Positions 25,441 to 55,823 of a stretch of 64,000 nucleotides of DNA are shown in pieces; the first letter of the stretch is position 1; the number at the start of each line of letters is the position of its first letter. The notes under the pieces are model-generated. The model was not told the origin of the DNA. It saw only the letters and a list, made by a program, of their open reading frames with translations, and did no database searches. The stretch covers positions 1-64,000 of the forward strand of contig NZ_JASLCE010000008.1 in assembly GCF_030146175.1 (NCBI RefSeq), in the 5' to 3' direction. The translations under genes were made by a program, and so were the position numbers. Origin of the DNA: Flavobacterium sp. (GTDB lineage Bacteria > Bacteroidota > Bacteroidia > Flavobacteriales > Flavobacteriaceae).

Positions 25441-26604
25441 TTAATTTTTGAAATATTCCACTCCATTTTCACCCAGCAATCCTTTTTTACCGGCTTGGGT
25501 TGTCACTTCAAACAAGCCAAACTGCCAATGATTATTTACCGGAACAGCATTTAAGATTTTGATCTCCTTATATTTTGGCTTAACGGGTTTGTAAATAGAA
25601 TTTAAAACAAATAGTCCTTTTTTAGTATCCTTTTCAAGAATACAAATTCCATCCCATCGCTCTTTAATAGCATCATATTCATACTCCAACAGTACTTTGC
25701 CCGTTTCGTCTAGTAATCCCATTTGACCATTCTTTTTCGTCGAAAACGTAGCATATCCATGATTCGATCGGAAAAATTCAATTTTATTATCACTTTTAAA
25801 AATAATTTTATCTTTATCCATGGCATATATTCCATACCCCTCGTTCATTTTTACGATGACTAGATTATCGGAAATCGAAACTATTTCACCATATTCTCTT
25901 TTTATTCTATTATAATTATTTTGCTTTGCCTCTCGCTCACTTTCGGTCGTATGAATCGAACGAATAACAGGTGCGTTATACCATTCTGGTAGTTCCTTCA
26001 CAACAACCCTGTCATCGGCAAAATCGACTCCTTTTCCCTCCCAATAACTTTTTTCATCTTTGGCTATCCAGTAAAATTTGTCCTGATTTTCATCTTTATT
26101 TTGTTCCCAAGACCAATCTATAGCACTATATTCAATGGGTATAATGCATTTTCCTTTCGAGTTGATCAATCCTTTTTTATTCCCTTTTCTCACCTGATAA
26201 CTTTCATTGGAAACAGACGACACCTCATCATATTCAACAGGAATAAAAACTTTAAAATCCTTGATGACACCCATCTTATTATTCTTATACGCAAAAATAT
26301 CATTTGAAAACAGGGACATTTTTACCGAATCCAAATCCATCTCTGTAAACCGCTCTTTCTTATATTGATCAATAATAGAAATTTTGCCATTTTTCTTAAT
26401 CACATATTTCCCATTAAAGTTTGGTGGTGTTGCTACAAAATCGACCATACCAGTTGTAAAGGGTTTTACTTTCACCGTTCCCAAAGTATCACAAAGTCCC
26501 CAAAGATTACCATCCCGATACGGCAACAACAATTCGTTTTTTTTGGTGTTTTGGGAAAATACAGTCGTAATACTTAATAAAAAAAGTAAATAAATCGTTT
26601 TCAT
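25441..26604 (-). CDS. Secreted WG-repeat protein (copy 1)
   Basis: 387 aa from ATG 26604, with a signal peptide (KTIYLLFLLSITTVFSQ). Contains several WG-type repeats: LLPYRDGNLWGLCDTLG, FAYKNNKMGVIKDF, KGNKKGLINSKGKCIIPIEY, KKNGQMGLLDETGKVLLEYEY, TKKGLFVLNSIYKP, AGKKGLLGENG. WG repeats are common in secreted Bacteroidota proteins of unknown role. It is a tandem duplicate of the next gene; similarity extends ~50 nt upstream of the start. The -7 box visible before copy 2 is degraded here (CATATTTT). Confidence 0.82.
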   Translation of the reverse strand: MKTIYLLFLLSITTVFSQNTKKNELLLPYRDGNLWGLCDTLGTVKVKPFTTGMVDFVATPPNFNGKYVIKKNGKISIIDQYKKERFTEMDLDSVKMSLFSNDIFAYKNNKMGVIKDFKVFIPVEYDEVSSVSNESYQVRKGNKKGLINSKGKCIIPIEYSAIDWSWEQNKDENQDKFYWIAKDEKSYWEGKGVDFADDRVVVKELPEWYNAPVIRSIHTTESEREAKQNNYNRIKREYGEIVSISDNLVIVKMNEGYGIYAMDKDKIIFKSDNKIEFFRSNHGYATFSTKKNGQMGLLDETGKVLLEYEYDAIKERWDGICILEKDTKKGLFVLNSIYKPVKPKYKEIKILNAVPVNNHWQFGLFEVTTQAGKKGLLGENGVEYFKN

Positions 26605-26669
26605 CAATATTATATTAGGTCGGCGAAATTACTGAAATATCTTACGTAAAATATGATTTTAAAACAATA

Positions 26670-26703
26670 AAAAAGCCCCGAAAAATAAATTTCAGGACTT
26701 TTA
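26670..26703 (-). terminator. Decayed terminator after WG-repeat gene 2
   Basis: Imperfect stem AAAAGCCCCGAAA/TTTCAGGACTTTT with two mismatches. It resembles the intact hairpin at 28100-28130 together with its flanks, so it appears to be a duplicated copy. Confidence 0.5.
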
Positions 26704-26753
26704 CTTGAGGTAATATCGTTCTAAAAGTGCCTTCTTCGTCGTCAGCTTTTTGG

Positions 26754-27923
26754 TTAATTTTTGAAATACTCCACTCCATTTTCACCCAGCAATCCTTTTT
26801 TACCGGCTTCGGTAGTCACCTCAAACAAACCAAACTGCCAACTCTCACTCACCGGAATGGCTTCTAATATTTTTATTTCCTTATATTTTGGTTTAACCGG
26901 TTTATAAATGGAATTTAAAACAAACATTCCTTTTTTATTGTCCTTTTTAAGCATACAAATTCCCATCCACTCCTTTTCAATAGTATCATATTCATAATCC
27001 AGTAACACCTTACCGGTTTCGTCAATTAATCCCATTTGACTATTCTTTTTCATCAGGAACGTAGTATACCCATTATTCATCCCACAAACTTCGATACTTT
27101 CGTCACTTTTCAAAATGATCTTATCCTGATCCACACTATACACACCATACCCGTCGTTCATTTTCACAATATACATATCGATAGTGGCCGAATTCCTATT
27201 GATCGAAAAAGAAACTACCTCACCGTATTTTTCCCCTATACTTTTACTTCTGTTTTCCTCTTCCTCTGTTACCTGTATTTTCATACCGATAACAGGCGGG
27301 CCGTACCATTCCGGTGTTTCATCAACCAAAACGACACTGTCGGTAAAACCAACTTCATTTTCCTCCCCATCGTTATTTTCATTTTCTGCAACCCAGTGAA
27401 ACTTCTTGCTATTTTCATTTTCTCCCCAGGACTCATGTATAGTAGTATATGCGACGGGAATAAGCTGTTTTCCTTTTGAATTGATCAACCCTTGTTTACC
27501 TCCTTTTTCCACCACATAACTTTGATTGGAAGTAAGCGATATTTCATCATATTGAACCGGAATAAGCATTTTGAAATTCCGGATAACTCCGATTTTATTA
27601 TTCTTATACACATAAATATCTTTTGAAAAAGGATACATTTTGACCGAATCCAAATTCATTTCTGCCAACAACGTTCTCTTATGCTGATCAATAATTGAAA
27701 TTTTTCCGTTTTTCTTAATAACATATTTCCCTTTAAAGTTTGGTGGCGTTGTCATAAAATCCACCATACCGGTTGTAAAAGGTTTTACTTTCACCTTACC
27801 TAACGTATCGCAAAGTCCCCAAAGATTGCCATCCCGGTACGGTAACAACAATTCGTTCTTTTTAGCATTCTGAGAAAAGACAGTAGTAATACTCAATAAA
27901 AAAAGCAAATAAATTTTCTTCAT
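26754..27923 (-). CDS. Secreted WG-repeat protein (copy 2)
   Basis: 389 aa with a signal peptide (KKIYLLFLLSITTVFSQ). Same architecture as copy 1: the LLPYRDGNLWGLCDTLG opening is identical, GLINSKGKQLIP and MGLIDETGKVLLDYEY match, and the ending GLLGENGVEYFKN is identical. The middle ~180-230 differs by small insertions. Has a full -7 box at 27967-27974. It is separated from the rtcB2 operon upstream by a terminator at 28100, so it is probably its own unit. Function unknown. Confidence 0.82.
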   Translation of the reverse strand: MKKIYLLFLLSITTVFSQNAKKNELLLPYRDGNLWGLCDTLGKVKVKPFTTGMVDFMTTPPNFKGKYVIKKNGKISIIDQHKRTLLAEMNLDSVKMYPFSKDIYVYKNNKIGVIRNFKMLIPVQYDEISLTSNQSYVVEKGGKQGLINSKGKQLIPVAYTTIHESWGENENSKKFHWVAENENNDGEENEVGFTDSVVLVDETPEWYGPPVIGMKIQVTEEEENRSKSIGEKYGEVVSFSINRNSATIDMYIVKMNDGYGVYSVDQDKIILKSDESIEVCGMNNGYTTFLMKKNSQMGLIDETGKVLLDYEYDTIEKEWMGICMLKKDNKKGMFVLNSIYKPVKPKYKEIKILEAIPVSESWQFGLFEVTTEAGKKGLLGENGVEYFKN

Positions 27924-28133: not shown

Positions 28134-29558
28134 TTAATCTTCATGACTTCCGTCATCGGCCATTCGGACCAATTTTGGTGTAAATTTCGCTACAACATCA
28201 ATCAGTTCTTTTTGTGCTTCCATAACCACGGTAATATCTTTATAGGCCATTGGCGCTTCATCTCTTCCGGCACCAACAAGCGTCACGCCGTGTTCTTTTA
28301 ACACGTCCCGCATATCGGCTTTGGTAATACTTTTCACCGCCTGTTTACGGCTCATCTGTCTTCCGGCGCCATGCGAAGCCGAATGAATCGCTTCCGATTC
28401 TCCTTTTCTCCGCACCAAAAAACCGGGAGCCGTCATCGAACCCGGAATGATTCCCATCACCCCTTTTCCGGCTGGTGTAGCTCCTTTTCGATGCACGATA
28501 ACCTCTTCGCCGTTCCAAATTTCCTTCCATGCAAAATTATGATGGTTTTCAACCCGTGCCAGCAATGTCCCGCCAATAGCTTTCTGCATTTTTTCATGAA
28601 TCACCTGATGACAGGCAGATGCATAATCGCCAGCGAGATTCATCGCCAACCAATATTCCATTCCTTCCTGTGAATCCATATTCAGATACGCTAAGTTGGC
28701 CGCTTCATGTGGCAACTTACATATTTTTTTAGCCAGTTGGGTGTAATACCCGGCTATCGTAGCTCCCATCCCTCTTGATCCGGAATGCGTCAATAACGCG
28801 ACATAACGTCCTTTATCAATATTTAACACCTCATCGCGCTGTTCAAATTCAATGATTCCGAATTCCACAAAGTGATTTCCGCCACCGGATGTTCCCAATT
28901 GCGACCAGGCTTTATCCTGTAACTTTTTAATAAACGGCGTCAGGTTAAACTCGTCTCGGTCAAGAATATCGTGTTGTGTTTTATGTTGTCCGTGATACCC
29001 GTGTCCGGCTCCGAATTTTGTATTGGCAATCAGCTCTCTTTTGTATTTCGCCTGATTTTCATAGAAATGCATTTCCGGAATATCATAGATTGACAAAGCC
29101 ATACGACAGCCGATATCGACTCCGACACCATACGGGATAATCGCATTTTTAGTTGCCAGAACGCCTCCAATCGGCAATCCATACCCCTGATGTGCATCCG
29201 GCATTAAAGCTCCTGCAACCGTAACCGGTAACTGCATTGCCACCCGCATCTGATCCTGAGCACCCTCATCAATATGTTCGGCTCCAAATACCCGGTATTC
29301 TTTTCCGGTTTCCAACAACGGGATCGTTTGATCAACAGGCGTATTGGCTTCTTCGATTAACTTTGTTGCCAATGCTTCCCATATTGCATCGTCCAAATAG
29401 TGTTCCGGTTTCTCTTTTATATTTTTCAACAACTCCAACATCGCGATCTTATCCTGACCAACATTCTGTTTCGCTGCAATTTTTAATGCCAATCCCAAGA
29501 CTGCATTTTCGTTATATCCAACCGAAATCAAATCGGTTCCTGTAATTTTTGTTTCCAT
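28134..29558 (-). CDS. rtcB: RtcB RNA ligase (copy 2, Ro60-associated)
   Basis: 474 aa, full-length RtcB. Intact motifs: GVGVDIGCRMALSIYD, SGGGNHFVEFG, LTHSGSRGMG, RVENHHNFAWKE, HRKGATPAGKG, and HSASHGAGR with the guanylated His at about residue 396, then APMAYKDI. Seals 2',3'-cyclic or 3'-phosphate RNA ends to 5'-OH ends. Its ATG overlaps the stop of the upstream nucleotidyltransferase by 1 nt (TAATG), so it is coupled to the Ro60/Y RNA operon. Similar to the 9662 copy over the whole length but with different termini. No RtcA cyclase and no archease is encoded in the window. Confidence 0.96.
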   Translation of the reverse strand: METKITGTDLISVGYNENAVLGLALKIAAKQNVGQDKIAMLELLKNIKEKPEHYLDDAIWEALATKLIEEANTPVDQTIPLLETGKEYRVFGAEHIDEGAQDQMRVAMQLPVTVAGALMPDAHQGYGLPIGGVLATKNAIIPYGVGVDIGCRMALSIYDIPEMHFYENQAKYKRELIANTKFGAGHGYHGQHKTQHDILDRDEFNLTPFIKKLQDKAWSQLGTSGGGNHFVEFGIIEFEQRDEVLNIDKGRYVALLTHSGSRGMGATIAGYYTQLAKKICKLPHEAANLAYLNMDSQEGMEYWLAMNLAGDYASACHQVIHEKMQKAIGGTLLARVENHHNFAWKEIWNGEEVIVHRKGATPAGKGVMGIIPGSMTAPGFLVRRKGESEAIHSASHGAGRQMSRKQAVKSITKADMRDVLKEHGVTLVGAGRDEAPMAYKDITVVMEAQKELIDVVAKFTPKLVRMADDGSHED

Positions 29559-30622
29559 TAGTATCTACTGTATAATTCTTCCCGCATTTCTATCAAAAGC
29601 TTTTCTGCTTTTTCGATATCGGGAAAATCTTTTAAATCACTCTCTTTAGCCCCAAATTCAATACGCTCCAATATATTTTCCGCCAGCAGCAGCAGTTCTT
29701 CATAACTTTTATTCCCAGCTTTAATTGCCAGCAAATCTTCCCGGTTTTGACGTCTGATATTGAGTTTTCCGGTTTCCATGAGTTCTTCAGCTACCTGCAG
29801 TAAGCGTATCGTGTGCATCATATTTTTGGAATCGTATCCGCCCTGATGTTTTTCATTCACCGCATAACGCTCCTGATTGCGTTTTTCAACCCATTCCCAA
29901 TACGCATTATAATCTTTACAATAGGACGAGTAGCTTTCTGCATTAAAACACAGATATACGTGTACCTTTTCGCCTTCTTCCACCGACGACAAACTCACTT
30001 CGTTGGAATGACTGTTTTTCTGCACTCCTTTATACCCCTTCGTTCCCATTTGATCGTAAAACAAAGCATATAATCCTTTTGAATGCGGTAATTTTATCAA
30101 TCCGCAGCGTTCCTCATCATATCGTTGTGCTTTAATCCAATCTCGAAACGGAACCACATCGTAATTTTGTAAAACAAAACAAAAATCCAATACTTCTTTT
30201 TTCTCCTTGGGAAAAGGATTAACAATTTTCTTTTTAAGTCCTTTAGCCTTCCGGATCTGCGTAACCGCATAACCGGCAAAAGTATCCTTTGTTTGTTTGG
30301 ACAGAAACATTTCCATTGTGAGTCGTTCCATTATCGGATGCTTAAGCAACACACAATCTTCGGGTGTTGCCAGTAATTCGAGCATGTTCGGGTTACTTTT
30401 TAAAAGCAATTCCATAAACCTACCCAGTTCATAATAAACCTCATCGTTGGTTTCATTTTGAACCTGCGCTACATACTCCAATCCGAAGAACTGTTCTTTA
30501 GGAAGATAAAACACTCCTTTAAGATCTGTATCCGATTCCGGCGTATCCAAACCGTAGGCTTTACTACCGCTGACACACTCAAACAGCAACAGCCCTTTTT
30601 CTTTTATTTCCTGTATTGTCAT
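29558..30622 (-). CDS. RlaP-type nucleotidyltransferase 1 (RNA-repair pol-beta family)
   Basis: 354 aa. Pol-beta-fold nucleotidyltransferase with G19-S20 and the catalytic pair D31/D33 in SGSKAYGLDTPESDTDLKG. Belongs with PF10127/COG3541 (RlaP, RNA repair pathway polymerase-beta family), which co-occurs with RtcB. The long C-terminal region (~100-340) is helical and basic (KAKGLKKKIVNPFPKEKKE) and may bind RNA. Its start lies inside the 3' end of nucleotidyltransferase 2 (44-nt overlap) and its stop overlaps rtcB2. Predicted to add nucleotides to damaged RNA ends before sealing; the substrate is inferred. Confidence 0.88.
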   Translation of the reverse strand: MTIQEIKEKGLLLFECVSGSKAYGLDTPESDTDLKGVFYLPKEQFFGLEYVAQVQNETNDEVYYELGRFMELLLKSNPNMLELLATPEDCVLLKHPIMERLTMEMFLSKQTKDTFAGYAVTQIRKAKGLKKKIVNPFPKEKKEVLDFCFVLQNYDVVPFRDWIKAQRYDEERCGLIKLPHSKGLYALFYDQMGTKGYKGVQKNSHSNEVSLSSVEEGEKVHVYLCFNAESYSSYCKDYNAYWEWVEKRNQERYAVNEKHQGGYDSKNMMHTIRLLQVAEELMETGKLNIRRQNREDLLAIKAGNKSYEELLLLAENILERIEFGAKESDLKDFPDIEKAEKLLIEMREELYSRY

Positions 30623-31379
30623 AACGTTTTAGCATGGTTTGAAAAAAGACATCCAGACTTTCGGTTTCAAATACCTCTTTTCCAACCGATTTTACGGCTT
30701 CTGTTGTTTTTTCAAAAGTTGTTTTTATAAAATCACTGAGTTCCCCGGTTACTACAACCCAATCGGATTCTTTTGCGGTTTCTTTTTGCTTGATCAACTG
30801 CAATATTATTGTTTTCACTTTAGCCTCATCCGGTAGTACGGTTAGCAATTCTCCGATTGTCATGGGCGCTATGGTTTGTTTTTCGACACACCATTTGGCG
30901 GCCAATAAAGGGCGAAGGATGTAAAACAGCTTTTTGATTTTTATTTCATTACCCTCTTCCATAGTCAACAGCGCGCTTTTTGCGATTCCAAGATAATGAA
31001 ACGTATTACTTCTTTCGCTAAAAAAACATTGCGACAATTGCCATAGTGCTTCGCGGAATCCTTTTTCTTCATAATAGACTTCCGGCGATTGCAGCCATTC
31101 AAATATTGTTGTATTGGATTTATTCATGAGCTGCAATACTTTCTTCAAATCCCATCCATACACATCCAATTCATCCGTTATCGGAAAACTCAGATGTCCA
31201 TCTACTTCTTTTACCGATAAATACGCACTACTATTTCGTATGTATACAAACCGTACATCATAATCACTATCCGGAGAAGGAAATCCCCAGGCACGGCTTC
31301 CGGATTCACAGGCAAATACTATTTTTATACCGTTTGCCTTTTCTATTTCTTTTAATTTTTCTGCTATTATTGTTTTCAT
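30579..31379 (-). CDS. RlaP-type nucleotidyltransferase 2
   Basis: 266 aa, first protein gene after the Y RNA array. G27-S28 and catalytic D39/D41 in SGSRAWGFPSPDSDYDVRF, with the same spacing as its partner. Contains DVYGWDLKKVLQLMNKSN, TIFEWLQSPEVY and a C-terminal helical domain; this subtype resembles YcgL-like COG3541 proteins. It is not a recent duplicate of nucleotidyltransferase 1, since only the catalytic region and the following helix are clearly alike. The ATG is 19 nt after the end of Y RNA 5. Two different RlaP enzymes in one operon suggest two end types or a heteromer. Confidence 0.88.
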   Translation of the reverse strand: MKTIIAEKLKEIEKANGIKIVFACESGSRAWGFPSPDSDYDVRFVYIRNSSAYLSVKEVDGHLSFPITDELDVYGWDLKKVLQLMNKSNTTIFEWLQSPEVYYEEKGFREALWQLSQCFFSERSNTFHYLGIAKSALLTMEEGNEIKIKKLFYILRPLLAAKWCVEKQTIAPMTIGELLTVLPDEAKVKTIILQLIKQKETAKESDWVVVTGELSDFIKTTFEKTTEAVKSVGKEVFETESLDVFFQTMLKRYDNTGNKRKRAVAV

Positions 31380-31397: not shown

Positions 31398-31524
31398 ACC
31401 GGGCAACAAGCAAAAAGAGTACATGGCGTGCGACCTTACACTAACTGTACTAACGGTACAGCGTCGGAATCGAACCAACACTACCCGAGCCCTAATCGAA
31501 GTAACTCCTTTTTACGACACCGGT
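31398..31524 (-). ncRNA. Y RNA-like RNA 5 with permuted tRNA mimic
   Basis: 127 nt. Outer stem ACCGG/CCGGU (31524-31520 with 31402-31398); 5' box UGUCGUA (31519-31513); inner stem AAAAAGGAGU/ACUCUUUUU (one bulge); UUACUUCG; 3' box GCUUGUUGC. The loop holds a T-arm GUUGG-UUCGAUU-CCGAC (31479-31463), then an acceptor-like stem CUGUAC/GUACAG closed by the 5-nt loop CGUUA (31461-31445), then a D-arm-like GUGU..GCAC with GG in its loop (31441-31428). The order T-arm, capped acceptor, D-arm is a circular permutation of tRNA. Known bacterial YrlA RNAs are also tRNA mimics bound by Ro60. Confidence 0.88.
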
Positions 31525-31541
31525 ATTTATGTTTTAATTGT

Positions 31542-31612
31542 AAAGAGGCAACATTTGTAAAGTGATCGGTCCTTTTAATTGTACGAAGTAACACTTTAGT
31601 ACGGCACTCTTT
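31542..31612 (-). ncRNA. Y RNA-like RNA 4, minimal form without T-arm
   Basis: 71 nt, the smallest unit. Outer stem AAAGAG/CUCUUU (31612-31607 with 31547-31542), 5' box UGCCGUA (one change from the others), inner stem UAAAGUG/CACUUUA (31598-31592 with 31564-31558), UUACUUCG box, and 3' box CAAAUGUUGC. The ~19-nt apical loop after the UUACUUCG box has no T-arm or D-arm. It keeps every Ro60-side element shared by the array but lacks the tRNA-like module. Confidence 0.82.
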
Positions 31613-31614
31613 TA

Positions 31615-31700
31615 GCAAGCGTAACAAGCAACAAATGACTTTCGGGACTCGAACCCAATTTAATCTACCAACGAAGTAACATTTGTTTACGACAACTTAC
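31615..31700 (-). ncRNA. Y RNA-like RNA 3 with T-arm only
   Basis: 86 nt. Outer stem GUAAGU/GCUUGC (with G-U pairs), 5' box UGUCGUA (31694-31688), inner stem AACAAAUG/CAUUUGUU (31687-31680 with 31637-31630), UUACUUCG box, and 3' box GCUUGUUAC. A perfect T-arm UUGGG-UUCGAGU-CCCGA lies at 31658-31642. No capped acceptor stem or clear D-arm; a GUUGGUAGA stretch before the T-arm recalls a D-loop but does not form a convincing stem. Confidence 0.83.
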
Positions 31701-31701
31701 G

Positions 31702-31838
31702 AAACAGAAGCAACATTCGAAAAAAGTACAGGGGCACATCGTTGCCGGAGTCGAACCGGATAACCTTGCTGTTTTTACAACTTCGCTATTCCTCCCCCAA
31801 ATGGTGACGAAGTAACTTTTTTCTACGACATTCTGTTT
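31702..31838 (-). ncRNA. Y RNA-like RNA 2 with T-arm
   Basis: 137 nt. Outer stem AAACAGAA/UUCUGUUU (8 perfect bp, 31838-31831 with 31709-31702), 5' box UGUCGUA (31830-31824), inner stem GAAAAAAGU/ACUUUUUUC (9 perfect bp, 31823-31815 with 31727-31719), UUACUUCG, and 3' box GAAUGUUGC. The apical part is closed by GGGG/CCCC and holds a hairpin (GUUGU/ACAGC) followed by a T-arm CCGG-UUCGACU-CCGG (31759-31745). Here the T-arm is 3' of the other hairpin, unlike units 1 and 5. Confidence 0.85.
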
Positions 31839-31846
31839 TTATTTTT

Positions 31847-31978
31847 AAACAAGGTAACCTATCAAAAAGAGTATTTATTTTGCTCTACCAACTGAGCTAC
31901 ATCTTACCGATGGCGGGACTTGAACCCGCGTCCCAAATACTTTAAATACGAAGTAACTCTTTTTTACGACACTTGTTT
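31847..31978 (-). ncRNA. Y RNA-like RNA 1 with permuted tRNA mimic
   Basis: 132 nt, 50 nt downstream of the Ro60 gene. Outer stem AAACAAG/CUUGUUU (31978-31972 with 31853-31847), 5' box UGUCGUA (31971-31965), inner stem AAAAAGAG/CUCUUUUU (31964-31957 with 31871-31864), UUACUUCG (31956-31949), and 3' box GAUAGGUUAC. Apical module: T-arm GCGGG-UUCAAGU-CCCGC (31929-31913), acceptor-like CAUC/GAUG capped by GGUAA (31912-31900), and canonical D-arm GCUC-AGUUGGUA-GAGC (31897-31882). The D-arm and T-arm are perfect tRNA matches but in permuted order with no anticodon arm. Confidence 0.92.
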
Positions 31979-31994
31979 TTTATTTCTTTTTATA

Positions 31995-32023
31995 ACTCCC
32001 GCGATGTTCTTAACCACGGGAGT
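31995..32023 (-). other. Hairpin between Ro60 gene and Y RNA array
   Basis: 7-bp stem ACTCCCG/CGGGAGT with a 15-nt loop, starting 5 nt after the Ro60 stop. It is followed by an A-rich stretch, not a U-tract, so it is not a normal terminator. It may be a processing or mRNA 3'-end element that separates the rsr mRNA from the RNA array. Confidence 0.55.
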
Positions 32024-32028
32024 ACTAC

Positions 32029-33546
32029 CTACAACCCAATCGCATTGATTTTATCCAGGGCTGTTTCTTTGTTTTCCAAAGCATCTAAAAGATCAAATAT
32101 CTTATCGGACCAACCGGCCAACAAATACACATCATTTTCTCGTATATCTATCGGTTGCTGACCGTATCCTGCCAAATCGAACAAATACAATTTTGCCTGT
32201 GGCGCAATTCGTTTGTACTTTTTCCAGGAACCGGCAAACGAGTTAAAAGTCATGGTACTGTTCCACATCTGGGCATCGGTAAACAACATCACTTTATCCA
32301 CCTGCTGGTTTTTACGAATCAGATCTTCCAACACCAAATGTCCGTTAGTAGCATATCCTACTTCGCCTTCTCTCCTGTAATATTCTTCTACATTGGCCAG
32401 TACCGCGCTTCTTGACATATTGATCACTTTCCAGGTATCGCCAAACATTCCGCTGATTACATTTTTACAACGGGATTGCAACAACATTCCCAACATCAAA
32501 CCGATATCATACAGTAATATCTTACTTCTTGCGGAAACCGGTTTTTGCATCGACCCCGAAACATCGCAAGCAATCACTACAGATGTATCGTAACCAAACC
32601 CGCGAATATTTTGCGCACTTATCGCAACCGCTTTTTCCAAAGCCTTCAAAATACTGGACGTAAACGGCGAATTGATTTGTTTCACTTCCCGATAGGCCGC
32701 CAAAAACCGAAATGGTAATTGTTTGGAACCGACAACCGCTTTTTCATTCGTCAGATAATCTGAAACCATAGCGATATGTTGTGCCGATACATTAGCTTCA
32801 AGTATATTCCGAAGGTTTCGCATCAAAGCCATATAACCGACTTTACGACTTTCTATCAACTCTTCCCATTTTAAGCGAAAAGCCATATTACGGACAGTTG
32901 TATTTTCAAATTTTACCATCCCCAAAACCGAAAGCTCCGTTTCCCATGTGTATGGTATTGCCAACGTATTGTTTACTATTTTATTAAATAACTCCTGCTG
33001 GTTCGCATCTTTTGCTTTCGGATGTACCAAAAACAAAGCATCTTTTAAGGTCACTTCCGCTTTCCGGTTGTATTTGGCAAACTGATATTCGTCGAACGTA
33101 TTGAACGATACCGCCAAACCTTTTTGAATCTGTTTTGAAAGTCGGTTTAATTTTTTAGTTTCTTTTCGTTCGTTAGCTAACTGATAATAGGCTAGCAATT
33201 CGGTAATCTCATCTGCTCTTTTCACTACATTGGTAACCGCTTTACTTACCGTTGCATTTCCGGATGTTATTTTCGCTAATTCCACTATCAATACCATCGG
33301 AACGGAACGCAAGTTCATTTCATTTCGGGCATACGCCGCCAGTTTCGCAACAAATTCCGGATCGCATACAGTCATTAATTTCTGAATTCGCTGCAATCGA
33401 TCATCCTGTTTTTCGTAAAAAGAATCACTTAATCCGGTTGTAACAACTGCGGTATACAATTCTTCTTCAGGCGACATTACGTATGCCGTTGCTCTTTCAT
33501 GATTGATGATCCTTTTACTTTCTCTTTTTAATAAGTTGAATTTCAT
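32029..33546 (-). CDS. rsr: Ro60 orthologue (TROVE domain protein, Rsr)
   Basis: 505 aa from ATG 33546; upstream in-frame sequence to 33612 is rejected because the minus-strand promoter lies within it. N-terminal TROVE HEAT-repeat ring (~5-310: ESKRIINHERATAYVMSPEEELYTAVVT, FVAKLAAYARNEMNLRSVPMVLIVELAK, VRNMAFRLKWEELIESRKVGYMALMRNLRNIL) and a C-terminal vWA domain with an intact MIDAS DVSGS (328-332) and LFTDAQMW. Ro60/Rsr rings bind Y RNAs on the outside and ends of misfolded RNA in the centre. It is the first gene of the operon; five Y RNA-like units follow directly. Salmonella rsr-yrlBA-rtcBA is the comparable known locus. Confidence 0.95.
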   Translation of the reverse strand: MKFNLLKRESKRIINHERATAYVMSPEEELYTAVVTTGLSDSFYEKQDDRLQRIQKLMTVCDPEFVAKLAAYARNEMNLRSVPMVLIVELAKITSGNATVSKAVTNVVKRADEITELLAYYQLANERKETKKLNRLSKQIQKGLAVSFNTFDEYQFAKYNRKAEVTLKDALFLVHPKAKDANQQELFNKIVNNTLAIPYTWETELSVLGMVKFENTTVRNMAFRLKWEELIESRKVGYMALMRNLRNILEANVSAQHIAMVSDYLTNEKAVVGSKQLPFRFLAAYREVKQINSPFTSSILKALEKAVAISAQNIRGFGYDTSVVIACDVSGSMQKPVSARSKILLYDIGLMLGMLLQSRCKNVISGMFGDTWKVINMSRSAVLANVEEYYRREGEVGYATNGHLVLEDLIRKNQQVDKVMLFTDAQMWNSTMTFNSFAGSWKKYKRIAPQAKLYLFDLAGYGQQPIDIRENDVYLLAGWSDKIFDLLDALENKETALDKINAIGL

Positions 33547-33609
33547 CGTTTTACTTTTTGTTGTTACACTTCGTTTTAACTGCCGGACTGTTGTGTTATC
33601 CTGACATTG

Positions 33610-33617
33610 CAAAGATG
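33610..33617 (-). promoter_or_regulatory. rsr: Candidate -7 box of the rsr operon (CATCTTTG)
   Basis: Seven of eight bases match TAnnTTTG, 64 nt before the rsr ATG. No TTG at -33; two CTGCGTA repeats lie at that position instead, which fits an activator-dependent promoter. Confidence 0.5.
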
Positions 33618-33627
33618 ACCACCTTAG

Positions 33628-33647
33628 TACGCAGCATAAATACGCAG
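33628..33647. promoter_or_regulatory. Direct repeat TACGCAG x2 upstream of rsr (candidate regulator site)
   Basis: TACGCAG at 33628-33634 and again at 33641-33647, 13 bp apart, just upstream of the rsr -7 box. The same TACGCA core forms an inverted repeat before the divergent WYL gene (33740-33758). Confidence 0.5.
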
Positions 33648-33739: not shown

Positions 33740-33758
33740 TACGCAAATAGATTGCGTA
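33740..33758. promoter_or_regulatory. Inverted repeat upstream of WYL gene (candidate operator)
   Basis: Perfect repeat TACGCAA-ATAGA-TTGCGTA, centred ~22 bp before the WYL gene's -7 box, where RNA polymerase contacts would lie. Candidate autoregulatory site. Confidence 0.55.
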
Positions 33759-33834: not shown

Positions 33835-34848
33835 ATGGCAACAAATAAACTCGCTTTAATCCGCTATAAAACCATCGATAATTGTTTACGCAACCGATTT
33901 CGGAAATGGACTTTAGACGATCTGATCGAAAAAGTAGCCGATGCCCTATACGAATATGAAGGAATCAGTACCGGTATTAGCAAAAGAACCATTCAGGGGG
34001 ATATTCAGATGATGCGTAGCGACCGTTTGGGCTACAATGCACCTATTATAGTAACCGATCGGAAATTTTATTCGTATGAAGACGAGCAATACAGCATTAC
34101 CAACTCACCGATTAATGATGCGGATATGGATAAAATGAAAGAAATTGTTGCCCTGCTAAAACAATTTAACGGGTTTAACTATTTTGACGAAATGAGTGGA
34201 ATGATTGCCCGCCTGGAGAACAACCTATACAAGTCGTCCGGCAAAACAAAGAATTACATCCAATTTGAGAGCAATACCCAACTAAAAGGAATTGAACATC
34301 TAACACCTTTATATCAGGCTATTCTAAATCAGACGCCATTATTAATTGAATACCGCTCATTTAGAGCTAAAGAATCCCGACAGGATATTTACCATCCGTA
34401 TCTTTTAAAAGAATACCGGAACCGGTGGTTTTTAATTACCAAACCCAAAAAAGGAACCACGTTAGTTACACTGGCACTGGATCGTATCGAGGCTTTTTAT
34501 ACCTTATCCAAAGATTTATACATCCCTTATGAAGGCGTTGATTTTGAACGCTATTTTGAAGACGCTATCGGTGTAACCAAAACCCGGAAAGACAGGGCGC
34601 ATCGGGTAATTTTACAATTTGATCCTTACAATGGACCTTATGTAAAAACCAAACCGCTGCATTCTTCACAGCAAATCCTTAGTGAAGACGAAAAAGGATT
34701 ATTAATCCGTATTGATGTTGTTCTGAATTTTGAATTGGAACGGGAAATATTAGGTTTCGGAGAAAACGTAAAAGTACTGGCACCAAAAATGCTGGCACGA
34801 ACAATCAAACGCCGACTGGAAAAAGCCAACCTACGCTACGAGCCATAA
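33835..34848 (+). CDS. WYL-domain transcriptional regulator of the RNA-repair operon
   Basis: 337 aa. N-terminal winged-helix-like region (~8-80: RYKTIDNCLRNRFRKWTLDDLIEKV, SKRTIQGDIQMMRSDRLG), then a WYL domain (~150-225: LTPLYQAILNQTPLLIEYRSF, YHPYLLKEYRNRWFLITKPK, TLALDRIEAF) and the WCX C-terminal extension (VILQFDPYNGPYV, LEREILGFGENVKVLAPKML). WYL regulators sense nucleic acid or small ligands and often control RNA-repair or defence loci. Divergent from rsr with shared TACGCA-type repeats, so it probably controls the rsr-Y RNA-rlaP-rtcB2 operon, playing the part RtcR has in enterobacteria (inference). Confidence 0.88.
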   Translation: MATNKLALIRYKTIDNCLRNRFRKWTLDDLIEKVADALYEYEGISTGISKRTIQGDIQMMRSDRLGYNAPIIVTDRKFYSYEDEQYSITNSPINDADMDKMKEIVALLKQFNGFNYFDEMSGMIARLENNLYKSSGKTKNYIQFESNTQLKGIEHLTPLYQAILNQTPLLIEYRSFRAKESRQDIYHPYLLKEYRNRWFLITKPKKGTTLVTLALDRIEAFYTLSKDLYIPYEGVDFERYFEDAIGVTKTRKDRAHRVILQFDPYNGPYVKTKPLHSSQQILSEDEKGLLIRIDVVLNFELEREILGFGENVKVLAPKMLARTIKRRLEKANLRYEP

Positions 34849-54584: not shown

Positions 54585-55823
54585 CTATAACTTTTTAGTC
54601 GCAACCGGCACCGGTATAGGTTCCGGGTTAATTTTTCCTTTTTTAGTATTGATATTCAAACGCAGAATAATAACAAAAGCCACTATACCCGCGGCAGCCA
54701 TTCCGCCCACCATTGGAAACAAGGTTTCGTCGTGTAAAGCACTTACAACCGCCGACAAAATCGCTCCGCATACCATCTGCAAAAATCCGATCAATGCCGA
54801 AGCACTCCCTGCATTTTCCGAAAACGGTGCCAAGGCCATCGCCGTACTGTTCGGTACCAATATTCCGAGGCAAAACAGGAAGGTAAACAAGTGCAGAATC
54901 AGGATTACAGGGGTAAACAATTGCAGTTGTAATAATGTGATCAACGACAAAGCTACGATCAATAAGGTTCCTCCGGACAGGGTAACAATTTGCAACGAAG
55001 TAAATCGTTTTAACAGCAAACGGTTTAGCTGACTTCCGGCGATAAAGCCCATCGCATTAATTCCGAAAACCCAGCCATATTGTGCCTCCGTTAATCCGAA
55101 ATACTTCATAAATGCAAACGGCGATCCGCTGATATAGGCAAACATTCCCGCCATGGCCGCACTACCGGCAAAAGCGTAGAATAAGAAGGTCTTTTCAAAA
55201 AATACGGCTTTATAGTCGCGAATACTGTTGTTAAAATTAAGCGGTTCCGTAGTCCTTTCTTTTATACTTTCCGGCAGATAAAAATACACCGCCAGGGTCA
55301 GCAATAATCCGATTATCGCCAGCACATAAAAAATAGACCGCCAGTCGGAAACCGACACCACCCAACCACCGATTGACGGTGCCAGAATCGGAGCCACACC
55401 TACGATTAGCATCAGGATGGAAAAGATTTTGGCAATTTCCGAAACCGGAAACAAATCGCGTACTACAGCCCGGCTAACGACCATACCGACGCATCCGCCT
55501 AATGCCAACACAACCCGCATGGTGATCAACCAATAAATAGAAGGTGAAAGCGCACAACCGATCGAAGCTGCGATAAACAATAACAACCCAAACAATAAGG
55601 GTTTCTTTCGTCCGAATTTATCAATAATCGGTCCGTAAAAAAGCTGACCGATGCTAATTCCTATAAAATAACTGGTAAGCGACAGGGTAACCTGTGCGAT
55701 ATCCGTATGCAGTCCTTTGGCTATGGCCGGAAATGCAGGCAGGTACATATCGATGCTGAAAGGAGCCAGAGCCGATAAACCTGCGAGGATAAAAAGAAGG
55801 GTGTATTTTTGTTTAAACGTCAT
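54585..55823 (-). CDS. Bcr/CflA-type multidrug efflux MFS transporter
   Basis: 412 aa from ATG 55823; an in-frame start at 55847 adds a non-family leader. 12 transmembrane segments with the motifs APFSIDMYLPAFPAIA, FIGISIGQLFYGPIIDKFGRKKPLL (motif A), ALGGCVGMVVSRAVVRDLF and PILAPSIGGWV. Exports drugs such as bicyclomycin or chloramphenicol in relatives. Separated by 6 nt from the downstream MFS gene. Divergent from the Rrf2 regulator, which may control it. Confidence 0.9.
   Translation of the reverse strand: MTFKQKYTLLFILAGLSALAPFSIDMYLPAFPAIAKGLHTDIAQVTLSLTSYFIGISIGQLFYGPIIDKFGRKKPLLFGLLLFIAASIGCALSPSIYWLITMRVVLALGGCVGMVVSRAVVRDLFPVSEIAKIFSILMLIVGVAPILAPSIGGWVVSVSDWRSIFYVLAIIGLLLTLAVYFYLPESIKERTTEPLNFNNSIRDYKAVFFEKTFLFYAFAGSAAMAGMFAYISGSPFAFMKYFGLTEAQYGWVFGINAMGFIAGSQLNRLLLKRFTSLQIVTLSGGTLLIVALSLITLLQLQLFTPVILILHLFTFLFCLGILVPNSTAMALAPFSENAGSASALIGFLQMVCGAILSAVVSALHDETLFPMVGGMAAAGIVAFVIILRLNINTKKGKINPEPIPVPVATKKL

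Follow-up and report, generated by a model that had tools for sequence, protein, structure and literature searches.

Tandem arrays of predicted Y RNAs with variable, partly tRNA-like heads beside Ro60 in Flavobacterium and related Bacteroidota

Five structured units stand in tandem on the minus strand of a Flavobacterium sp. contig (31398-31978), wedged between a TROVE/Ro60 gene and an rlaP-rlaP-rtcB gene run. In related genomes such arrays are linked to Ro60, their stems are kept by compensatory changes, and their variable ends, here called heads, fall into recurring classes, of which some have a permuted tRNA-like layout. The best reading of the sequence is that the five units are predicted bacterial Y RNAs in a multi-headed array, an assignment made because both the linkage to Ro60 and a boxed end stem are present. 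We lean modestly toward a model in which these tandem predicted Y RNAs offer Ro60 a shared stem and use their heads as interchangeable adaptors to RNA-handling enzymes. The features of the locus are given by their position in the window, by which we mean the whole 64,000-nucleotide stretch of DNA analysed.

28134..29558, minus strand: RtcB RNA ligase family (PF01139, E 1.3e-80)
29558..30622, minus strand: second RlaP-family protein (PF10127, E 4.5e-25)
30579..31379, minus strand: RlaP, RNA-repair nucleotidyltransferase family (PF10127, E 9.7e-75)
31398..31524, minus strand: unit 5; T-arm, UGUAC/GUACA acceptor-like stem and GUGU/GCAC D-arm-like stem; unclustered head
31542..31612, minus strand: unit 4; plain short hairpin without tRNA-like arm; model R1, E 1.1e-8
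31615..31700, minus strand: unit 3; short head whose only arm is a T-arm (UUGGGUUCGAGUCCCGA); class C5; model R1, E 2.6e-9
31702..31838, minus strand: unit 2; head GGGGAGGAAUAGCGAAG...CAAGGUUAUCCGGUUCGACUCCGG...CCCC; class C1
31847..31978, minus strand: unit 1; head of T-arm, acceptor 3' strand, loop, acceptor 5' strand and D-arm; class C0
31995..32023, minus strand: stem-loop ACTCCCG...CGGGAGT between Ro60 and the array, read from the sequence
32029..33612, minus strand: TROVE/Ro60 protein, 527-aa ORF (PF05731, E 2.7e-27; PF25045, the Ro60 vWA domain, at cut-off)
33740..33758: perfect palindrome TACGCAA-N5-TTGCGTA in the divergent promoter region of Ro60 and the WYL gene; predicted operator
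33835..34848, plus strand: WYL/WCX-domain transcriptional regulator, divergent from Ro60 (PF13280 and PF25583 over cut-off; WYL in PADLOC)

The first-pass annotation had placed five units of one architecture after Ro60/TROVE and before RlaP/RtcB. Domain matches to PF05731, PF25045, PF10127 (twice) and PF01139 agree with that position, and all boxes and both stems are present as described. Each unit opens with an outer stem and the box UGYCGUA, followed by an inner stem some 7-9 pairs long. The head begins with UUACUUCG, and after the head come the returning inner stem, GUURC and the returning outer stem. Along the minus strand the units lie at 31978-31847, 31838-31702, 31700-31615, 31612-31542 and 31524-31398, with lengths of 132, 137, 86, 71 and 127 nt including the full outer stems. 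The 5' box TGTCGTA starts at 31971, 31830, 31694 and 31519, with TGCCGTA at 31606 in unit 4, and the loop box TTACTTCG occurs once per unit, at 31956, 31815, 31679, 31591 and 31504. By itself TTACTTCG is not rare, with two minus-strand copies and one plus-strand copy elsewhere in the window; TGTCGTA together with the loop box has 4 copies in the 64 kb, all of them in the array, and 0 in 100 shuffles. The array holds no minus-strand ORF of 60 or more amino acids.

Folded singly against shuffles, units 1-5 gave z values of -2.23, -0.99, -0.92, -1.09 and -2.05. Since this stability is mild, the case rests on comparison and not on energy. Two covariance models recover all five units: R1, trained on 38 of the 61 C1 units (relatives of unit 2), at E 2.6e-35 to 6.1e-8 with the next best match at 0.48, and R2, trained on 35 of the 111 C0 units (relatives of unit 1), at E 4.4e-25 to 1.7e-5 with the next best at 0.32. 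The best scores belong to units within the training sets (unit 2 with R1 at 2.6e-35, unit 1 with R2 at 4.4e-25), and units 3, 4 and 5 are absent from both sets. Rfam gives no match at gathering score anywhere in the window; a weak tmRNA match (16.3 bits) covers unit 1.

A contig scan with an alignment of 16 Ro60 proteins found 464 relatives, and the analysis used the best 80 of them. A unit descriptor made of the boxes, the outer stem and the inner stem accepts 410 units in 78 of these best 80 loci and the five in the window (n=415), compared with 0 units on the opposite strand and 1 in a dinucleotide shuffle. At least two units follow TROVE in 78/80 loci, mainly from Flavobacterium, Pedobacter and Chryseobacterium, and 74/80 have at least three, with a maximum of 10 per locus and medians of 126 nt for unit length and 14 nt for the gap. 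In the two loci without units, 0.2 kb (L056) and 1.7 kb (L055) of sequence follow TROVE. A few accepted units are merged pairs (e.g. L018 7726-7989), and the counts are probably too low because the motif alone yields 473 anchors and the descriptor accepts 415. Tandem arrays are a trait of this lineage. The earlier expectation that five units would be unusual stands against the single unit near the Deinococcus gobiensis TROVE and the two of Salmonella, but not here, where at least five is ordinary (51 of the best 80 loci). One of the loci, L035, is on a Limnohabitans MAG contig and is probably misbinned, since its Ro60 locus is of the Flavobacteriia type, at 68% to that of the window.

Compensatory outer and inner stems had been claimed from the five units alone, with covariation in homologous loci named as deciding; the pairing is kept over hundreds of units. 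In a swap test, 473 anchors were chosen by boxes alone, the stretches downstream were exchanged between loci in 20 repeats, and a pass was set at 4 or more outer pairs plus at least 7 of eight inner pairs in the anchor's own downstream stretch. Pairing with their own stretch was found for 69.1% of anchors versus 4.4-8.0% with swapped stretches, and the 327 passing anchors hold 42 different outer-stem 5-mers. In the covariation tests of aligned classes, where shuffles ignore relatedness and structures were drawn from the same alignments, C1 (38/61 units) had 98.1% of cells paired and 19/30 pairs altered on both sides, with 0/500 shuffles reaching any of five measures and slid partners pairing 41-56%, and C0 (35/111 units) had 95.8% of cells paired and 19/27 pairs altered on both sides, with 0/500 shuffles and slid partners at 37-50%. 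The swap test and the linkage to TROVE are stronger evidence than this class covariation.

The linkage was followed in an independent genome search. TROVE is present in 24 of 296 Bacteroidota genomes, and R1 gave 39 matches in 14 genomes, all among those 24. Every one of the 39 is on the contig and strand of TROVE, downstream within ~5.5 kb, so the covariance search of Bacteroidota proposed in the first-pass annotation, run here with models from relatives, leads back to TROVE; at least two of the matched genomes (G206 and G226) also gave a training row to R1 or R2. The best 32 matches of R2 (E to 1.8e-10) fall in 19 genomes, again all among the 24, and 31/32 are on the TROVE contig. At E <= 0.001, R2 reaches 162/296 genomes in all, including weak, often partial matches in genomes without TROVE, which are perhaps junctions of neighbouring tRNA genes. 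Within the ~1 kb examined downstream, 15 of the 24 TROVE loci of this phylum sample have a unit and nine do not; in L159 and L152 the units are further downstream than that. A DNA search of 149 genomes with unit 2 matched the centre genome only, because the sequence letters diverge too fast.

Single-linkage clustering of the 415 heads gave the following classes, among others (array counts include the window). C0 has 111 units in 67 arrays and holds unit 1, C1 has 61 units in 60 arrays (59 loci and the window) from Flavobacterium, Chryseobacterium and Pedobacter and holds unit 2, and C5 has 15 units in 15 arrays and holds unit 3, while 45/415 heads, including those of units 4 and 5, cluster with none other. 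C0 heads run T-arm, acceptor 3' strand, loop, acceptor 5' strand, D-arm. This is a circularly permuted tRNA layout of the YrlA type, and the MFE fold of unit 1 gives the same arms. In C0, each of the six model pairs of the permuted acceptor stem has both partners altered in at least one sequence, and 93.8% of the cells of this stem are paired; we therefore take the stem to be real. C1 heads consist of GGGG/CCCC, a two-tier arm and a T-arm, from which the MFE fold of unit 2 itself departs in part. The head of unit 5 is probably also a permuted tRNA, a reading drawn from the sequence and from R2, which matches it over the full model length at E 7.2e-13 outside the training set, since BLAST gives just the 3' tRNA half. 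The permuted order of T-arm, acceptor and D-arm is not found in units 2, 3 and 4. YrlA itself carries dihydrouridine made by DusA and pseudouridine made by TruB.

These tRNA-like heads were absent from the first-pass annotation and came out of the follow-up. In a comparison with 68 tRNA sequences, a portion of those in two genomes, 130/415 units align to the 5' half as well as the 3' half of the tRNA that scores best for them, and in 128 of these 130 the 3' half comes first; for shuffled units the count is 0/415. The T-loop letters GTTCRA occur in 269/415 units. The best tRNA of C0 units is Gly(GCC) in 55/111, followed by Asp, Phe, His, Met, Thr and others, where a best BLAST score is not proof of that identity. 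The permuted heads have no anticodon arm, and a loop closes their acceptor. In the head of unit 3 and in some other short T-arm heads (C14, L035_8, L074_3 and part of C5), UUGGU precedes the T-arm; it resembles the GG of the D-loop, and such heads may perhaps form a minimal tRNA elbow.

The T-arms and D-arms of tRNA type could also be the debris of decayed or chimeric tRNA genes lying here by chance. ARAGORN calls one L029 unit tRNA-Glu (60/80 loci scanned), the Rfam tRNA model just passes one unit each in L004 and L015 (29.5 vs 29 bits), and the weak, often partial R2 matches in many genomes without TROVE fit such an origin. ARAGORN finds no tRNA in the window, however, and does not recognise the units as tRNA genes, covariation is seen in the enclosing stems as well as in the permuted acceptor stem, and the matches stay beside TROVE. 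We rejected this explanation as extremely improbable, as covariation and TROVE linkage speak against it.

Another class, C9, has 10 units in 10 loci and none in the window, and its head contains a 23S-like stretch around ACGGUCCUAAGGUAGCG that we take to be helices 69-70. The C9 unit is ~217 nt long (e.g. L035 9016-9232). In L046 the 23S-like stretch is identical to 23S rRNA at 33/33 positions (BLAST, E 1.5e-12); 8/10 C9 units are among the BLAST matches listed to 23S, all 10 align, and the two units tested have alignment scores of 75.5 and 57 vs shuffled maxima of 49 and 50. A likeness of C1 to the rRNA locus before 23S, taken for 16S, was dropped: 1/4 C1 units beat 100 shuffles, with 41.0 vs 39.5 within 12 comparisons.

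The simplest model for a constant stem with variable heads is a single ring served by several adaptors. The whole operon would be read from one promoter under the WYL regulator, and the long transcript would be cut in AU-rich linkers. Ro60 would then hold every unit by its stem, and each head would serve as the docking point for an enzyme able to recognise a tRNA or rRNA fold. Docking of this kind is already known for PNPase, and the RlaP and RtcB of this locus are candidate partners. Heads need not serve these two enzymes, because both are often missing near TROVE in relatives: in tblastn searches of the examined flank with the window's proteins, RtcB is found in 27/80 loci, none of them Chryseobacterium, and RlaP in only 4/80. 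RtcB is present elsewhere in the genome in 8/8 genomes tested, five of them Chryseobacterium. Several results count against the adaptor model. No match to both halves of any of the 68 tRNAs compared was found for 285/415 units, the short head-poor units (unit 4 of the window; C6, C10-C12) have no docking-like fold, the D-stem of C0 hardly varies, the GGGG/CCCC stem of C1, with 92.8% of cells paired, has no both-side change, and unit 1 falls short of the Rfam score for YrlA (41.5 vs 69 bits).

Beyond the adaptor model, Ro60 of Bacteroidota and of some phages might be a hub with a library of RNA mimics, whose heads copy several tRNAs and a functional 23S site, a tentative possibility and rather a doubtful one. 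If it is true, one ring could pose as, sort or shield many RNAs in RNA damage or phage conflict. The arrays bear on the question of what Ro60 and Y RNAs do for bacteria in RNA-repair operons, and a 23S-like head would widen Y RNA mimicry past tRNA. One stem with many natural heads is a ready head-swap set in which each head class predicts a partner. Neither multi-headed arrays nor a 23S-like head is named in the titles and abstract openings of the literature searched, and an earlier mention is possible.

The main rival of the adaptor model is that Ro60-stabilised heads are decoys that soak up nucleases, toxins and modifying enzymes attacking tRNAs or 23S, a defence library shaped by conflict. 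The heads do copy tRNA folds and, in 10 loci, a 23S stretch, their content varies between loci, and the locus in the window has RNA-repair genes. A TROVE match is found in 95 phage records, and one phage carries three units. Hughes et al. raise the possibility, in excerpts of PMC7790460, that YrlA is a competitive inhibitor of a tRNA-cutting nuclease. On the other hand, the permuted heads, with no anticodon arm and a closed acceptor, give anticodon nucleases and 3'-end enzymes nothing to act on, although the missing anticodon argues against decoys of anticodon nucleases only. C1, in 60 arrays over three genera, is steadier than an arms race suggests, and PADLOC gives no match for Ro60, RlaP, the second RlaP or RtcB. 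We consider decoys unlikely. Still less probable is a role for the stem alone, with units that gate and stabilise Ro60 and heads that are mostly neutral, drifting caps. This would suit the minimal heads of some units (unit 4 and C6, C10-C12) and the 45/415 heads that do not cluster, but the helices of the heads themselves undergo compensatory changes, and C0, C1 and C9 are found again in many loci.

The place of the array inside a predicted operon, with Ro60 on one side and rlaP on the other, could also mean that it acts in cis, as a structured leader for the rlaP-rtcB messenger, and not as a set of separate RNAs. In many Chryseobacterium loci, though, the first unit is ~0.5 to 2.7 kb past TROVE with no RtcB or RlaP in the examined flank, the viral contig L429 has units on both sides of TROVE, and in phage csAssE-Sib the units precede TROVE, which makes a leader very improbable. 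As for the predicted operon of separate Y RNAs, the stem-loop at 31995..32023 is a possible processing or pausing site, and L004 has another stem-loop at the equivalent place. The Ro60 start is probably 22 codons inside the longest ORF, because most listed relatives are ~505 aa long and begin there. A Ro60 named as Flavobacterium cerinum has 81% identity to that of the window, and the window's protein is not a curated NCBIfam Rsr equivalog, as it scores 30.4 with a cut-off of 900. Two more TACGCAG copies, at 33628 and 33641, accompany the palindrome. A palindrome of the same class is found within 330 nt upstream of TROVE in 72/80 loci vs 79/1600 random windows drawn from the whole loci, intergenic or not. 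This suggests that the WYL protein controls the Ro60 operon via the palindrome.

Ro60, predicted Y RNAs and RtcB stand together in one locus, the arrangement of an rsr-yrl-rtc operon, and according to excerpts of PMC9879122 and PMC7790460 the Salmonella rsr-yrlBA-rtcBA locus likewise combines the three. In Salmonella there are two Y RNAs (yrlB and yrlA; PMC9879122, in excerpt) and the RtcR activator, whereas here there are five units, a WYL regulator and two RlaP; neither RtcR, in whose place the WYL protein stands, nor RtcA is among the ten neighbours tested. YrlA (RF02553) and unit 1 have in common the order of T-arm, acceptor-like stem and D-arm. Unit 1 matches the Rfam YrlA model at 41.5 bits (E 1.4e-7), and we did not file it as a curated YrlA member despite this layout because it is under the gathering score of 69. 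For units 2-5 no YrlA match at E <= 1 was listed. The array differs from YrlA in the other heads of units 2, 3 and 4, in having five units in tandem, and in the boxes UGYCGUA and UUACUUCG.

In Deinococcus, as excerpts of PMC4726728 and PMC8394870 describe, a Y RNA tethers Rsr, the Ro60 orthologue, to PNPase and gates Rsr. This RYPER complex (Ro60-Y RNA-PNPase) joins a Ro60 ring to a Y RNA, as predicted here, where a locus has many units. In Bacteroides thetaiotaomicron, of the same phylum, immunoprecipitated Ro60 RNPs held bacterial Y RNAs (PMC11277228, in excerpt). In the 7.1 kb read, D. gobiensis has one YrlA-like RNA before TROVE (49.6 bits, under gathering 69), built as [S1]-TGGTGAA-[S2]-TCCTTC...[S2']-GCCTGTTCC-[S1'] with boxes at matching places. 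The 5' box that the first-pass annotation did not recognise from published Y RNAs thus seems to be a lineage-specific form of one shared element (TGGTGAA in D. gobiensis, TGGTGA in csAssE-Sib).

Phage csAssE-Sib (OR575929.1, L174 3456-3871), crAss-like by name and Caudoviricetes in its record, is a gut phage with a tandem run of three Y-RNA-like units ahead of its Ro60 when a looser descriptor is applied, with the boxes TGGTGA and (T)TACTTCG. The two features annotated there as tRNA-Tyr and tRNA-Lys are enclosed by Y-like stems with the UUACUUCG box and have normal tRNA order. Both clear the Rfam tRNA cut-off (43 and 53.3 bits), so real tRNAs may be freed from these stems. According to excerpts of PMC10136315, the early genes of crAss001 include one for TROVE. 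Most of the 45 viral TROVE loci examined lack such an array: a unit on the strand of TROVE is present in 6 by the standard descriptor and 10 by the looser one, with a single match on the other strand in 4 and 2. Only L429 (4587-7533, six units) and L428 (two) have more than one. The phage loci L175 and L177 and the plasmid locus L176 have no unit by the standard descriptor. A loose pattern scan of viral contigs that ignored Ro60 gave at least 240 loci, and 21 of the 200 put to the descriptor matched. A lone descriptor match means little, because 20 of these 21 are single and 19 of those score <12.5; only L325, which overlaps L429 and thus encodes TROVE, had several units (6). A search of phage DNA with the whole array gave 332 records, of which the 20 listed cover 8-9% of the query, at the tRNA-like head of unit 1.

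Some further observations concern the window and the surroundings of TROVE. A lone descriptor match is found in the window at 54773-55023, and two adjoining WG-repeat proteins lie past RtcB (25441-27923). The solved TROVE proteins 9l5y and 9kop match the window's Ro60 at E 2.7e-26. Among L001-L060, clusters of 16 (L030 1292-3290), 5 (L053 3986-4801) and 4 (L054 4527-4941) tRNA genes were found upstream of TROVE, and the genome of L077 has many tRNA matches on the apparent TROVE contig. In two Chryseobacterium loci among the 10 scanned, the Rfam Flavo-1 RNA lies ~60 nt after TROVE on the minus strand, opposite to TROVE (L026 7590-7672 and L027 7599-7687).
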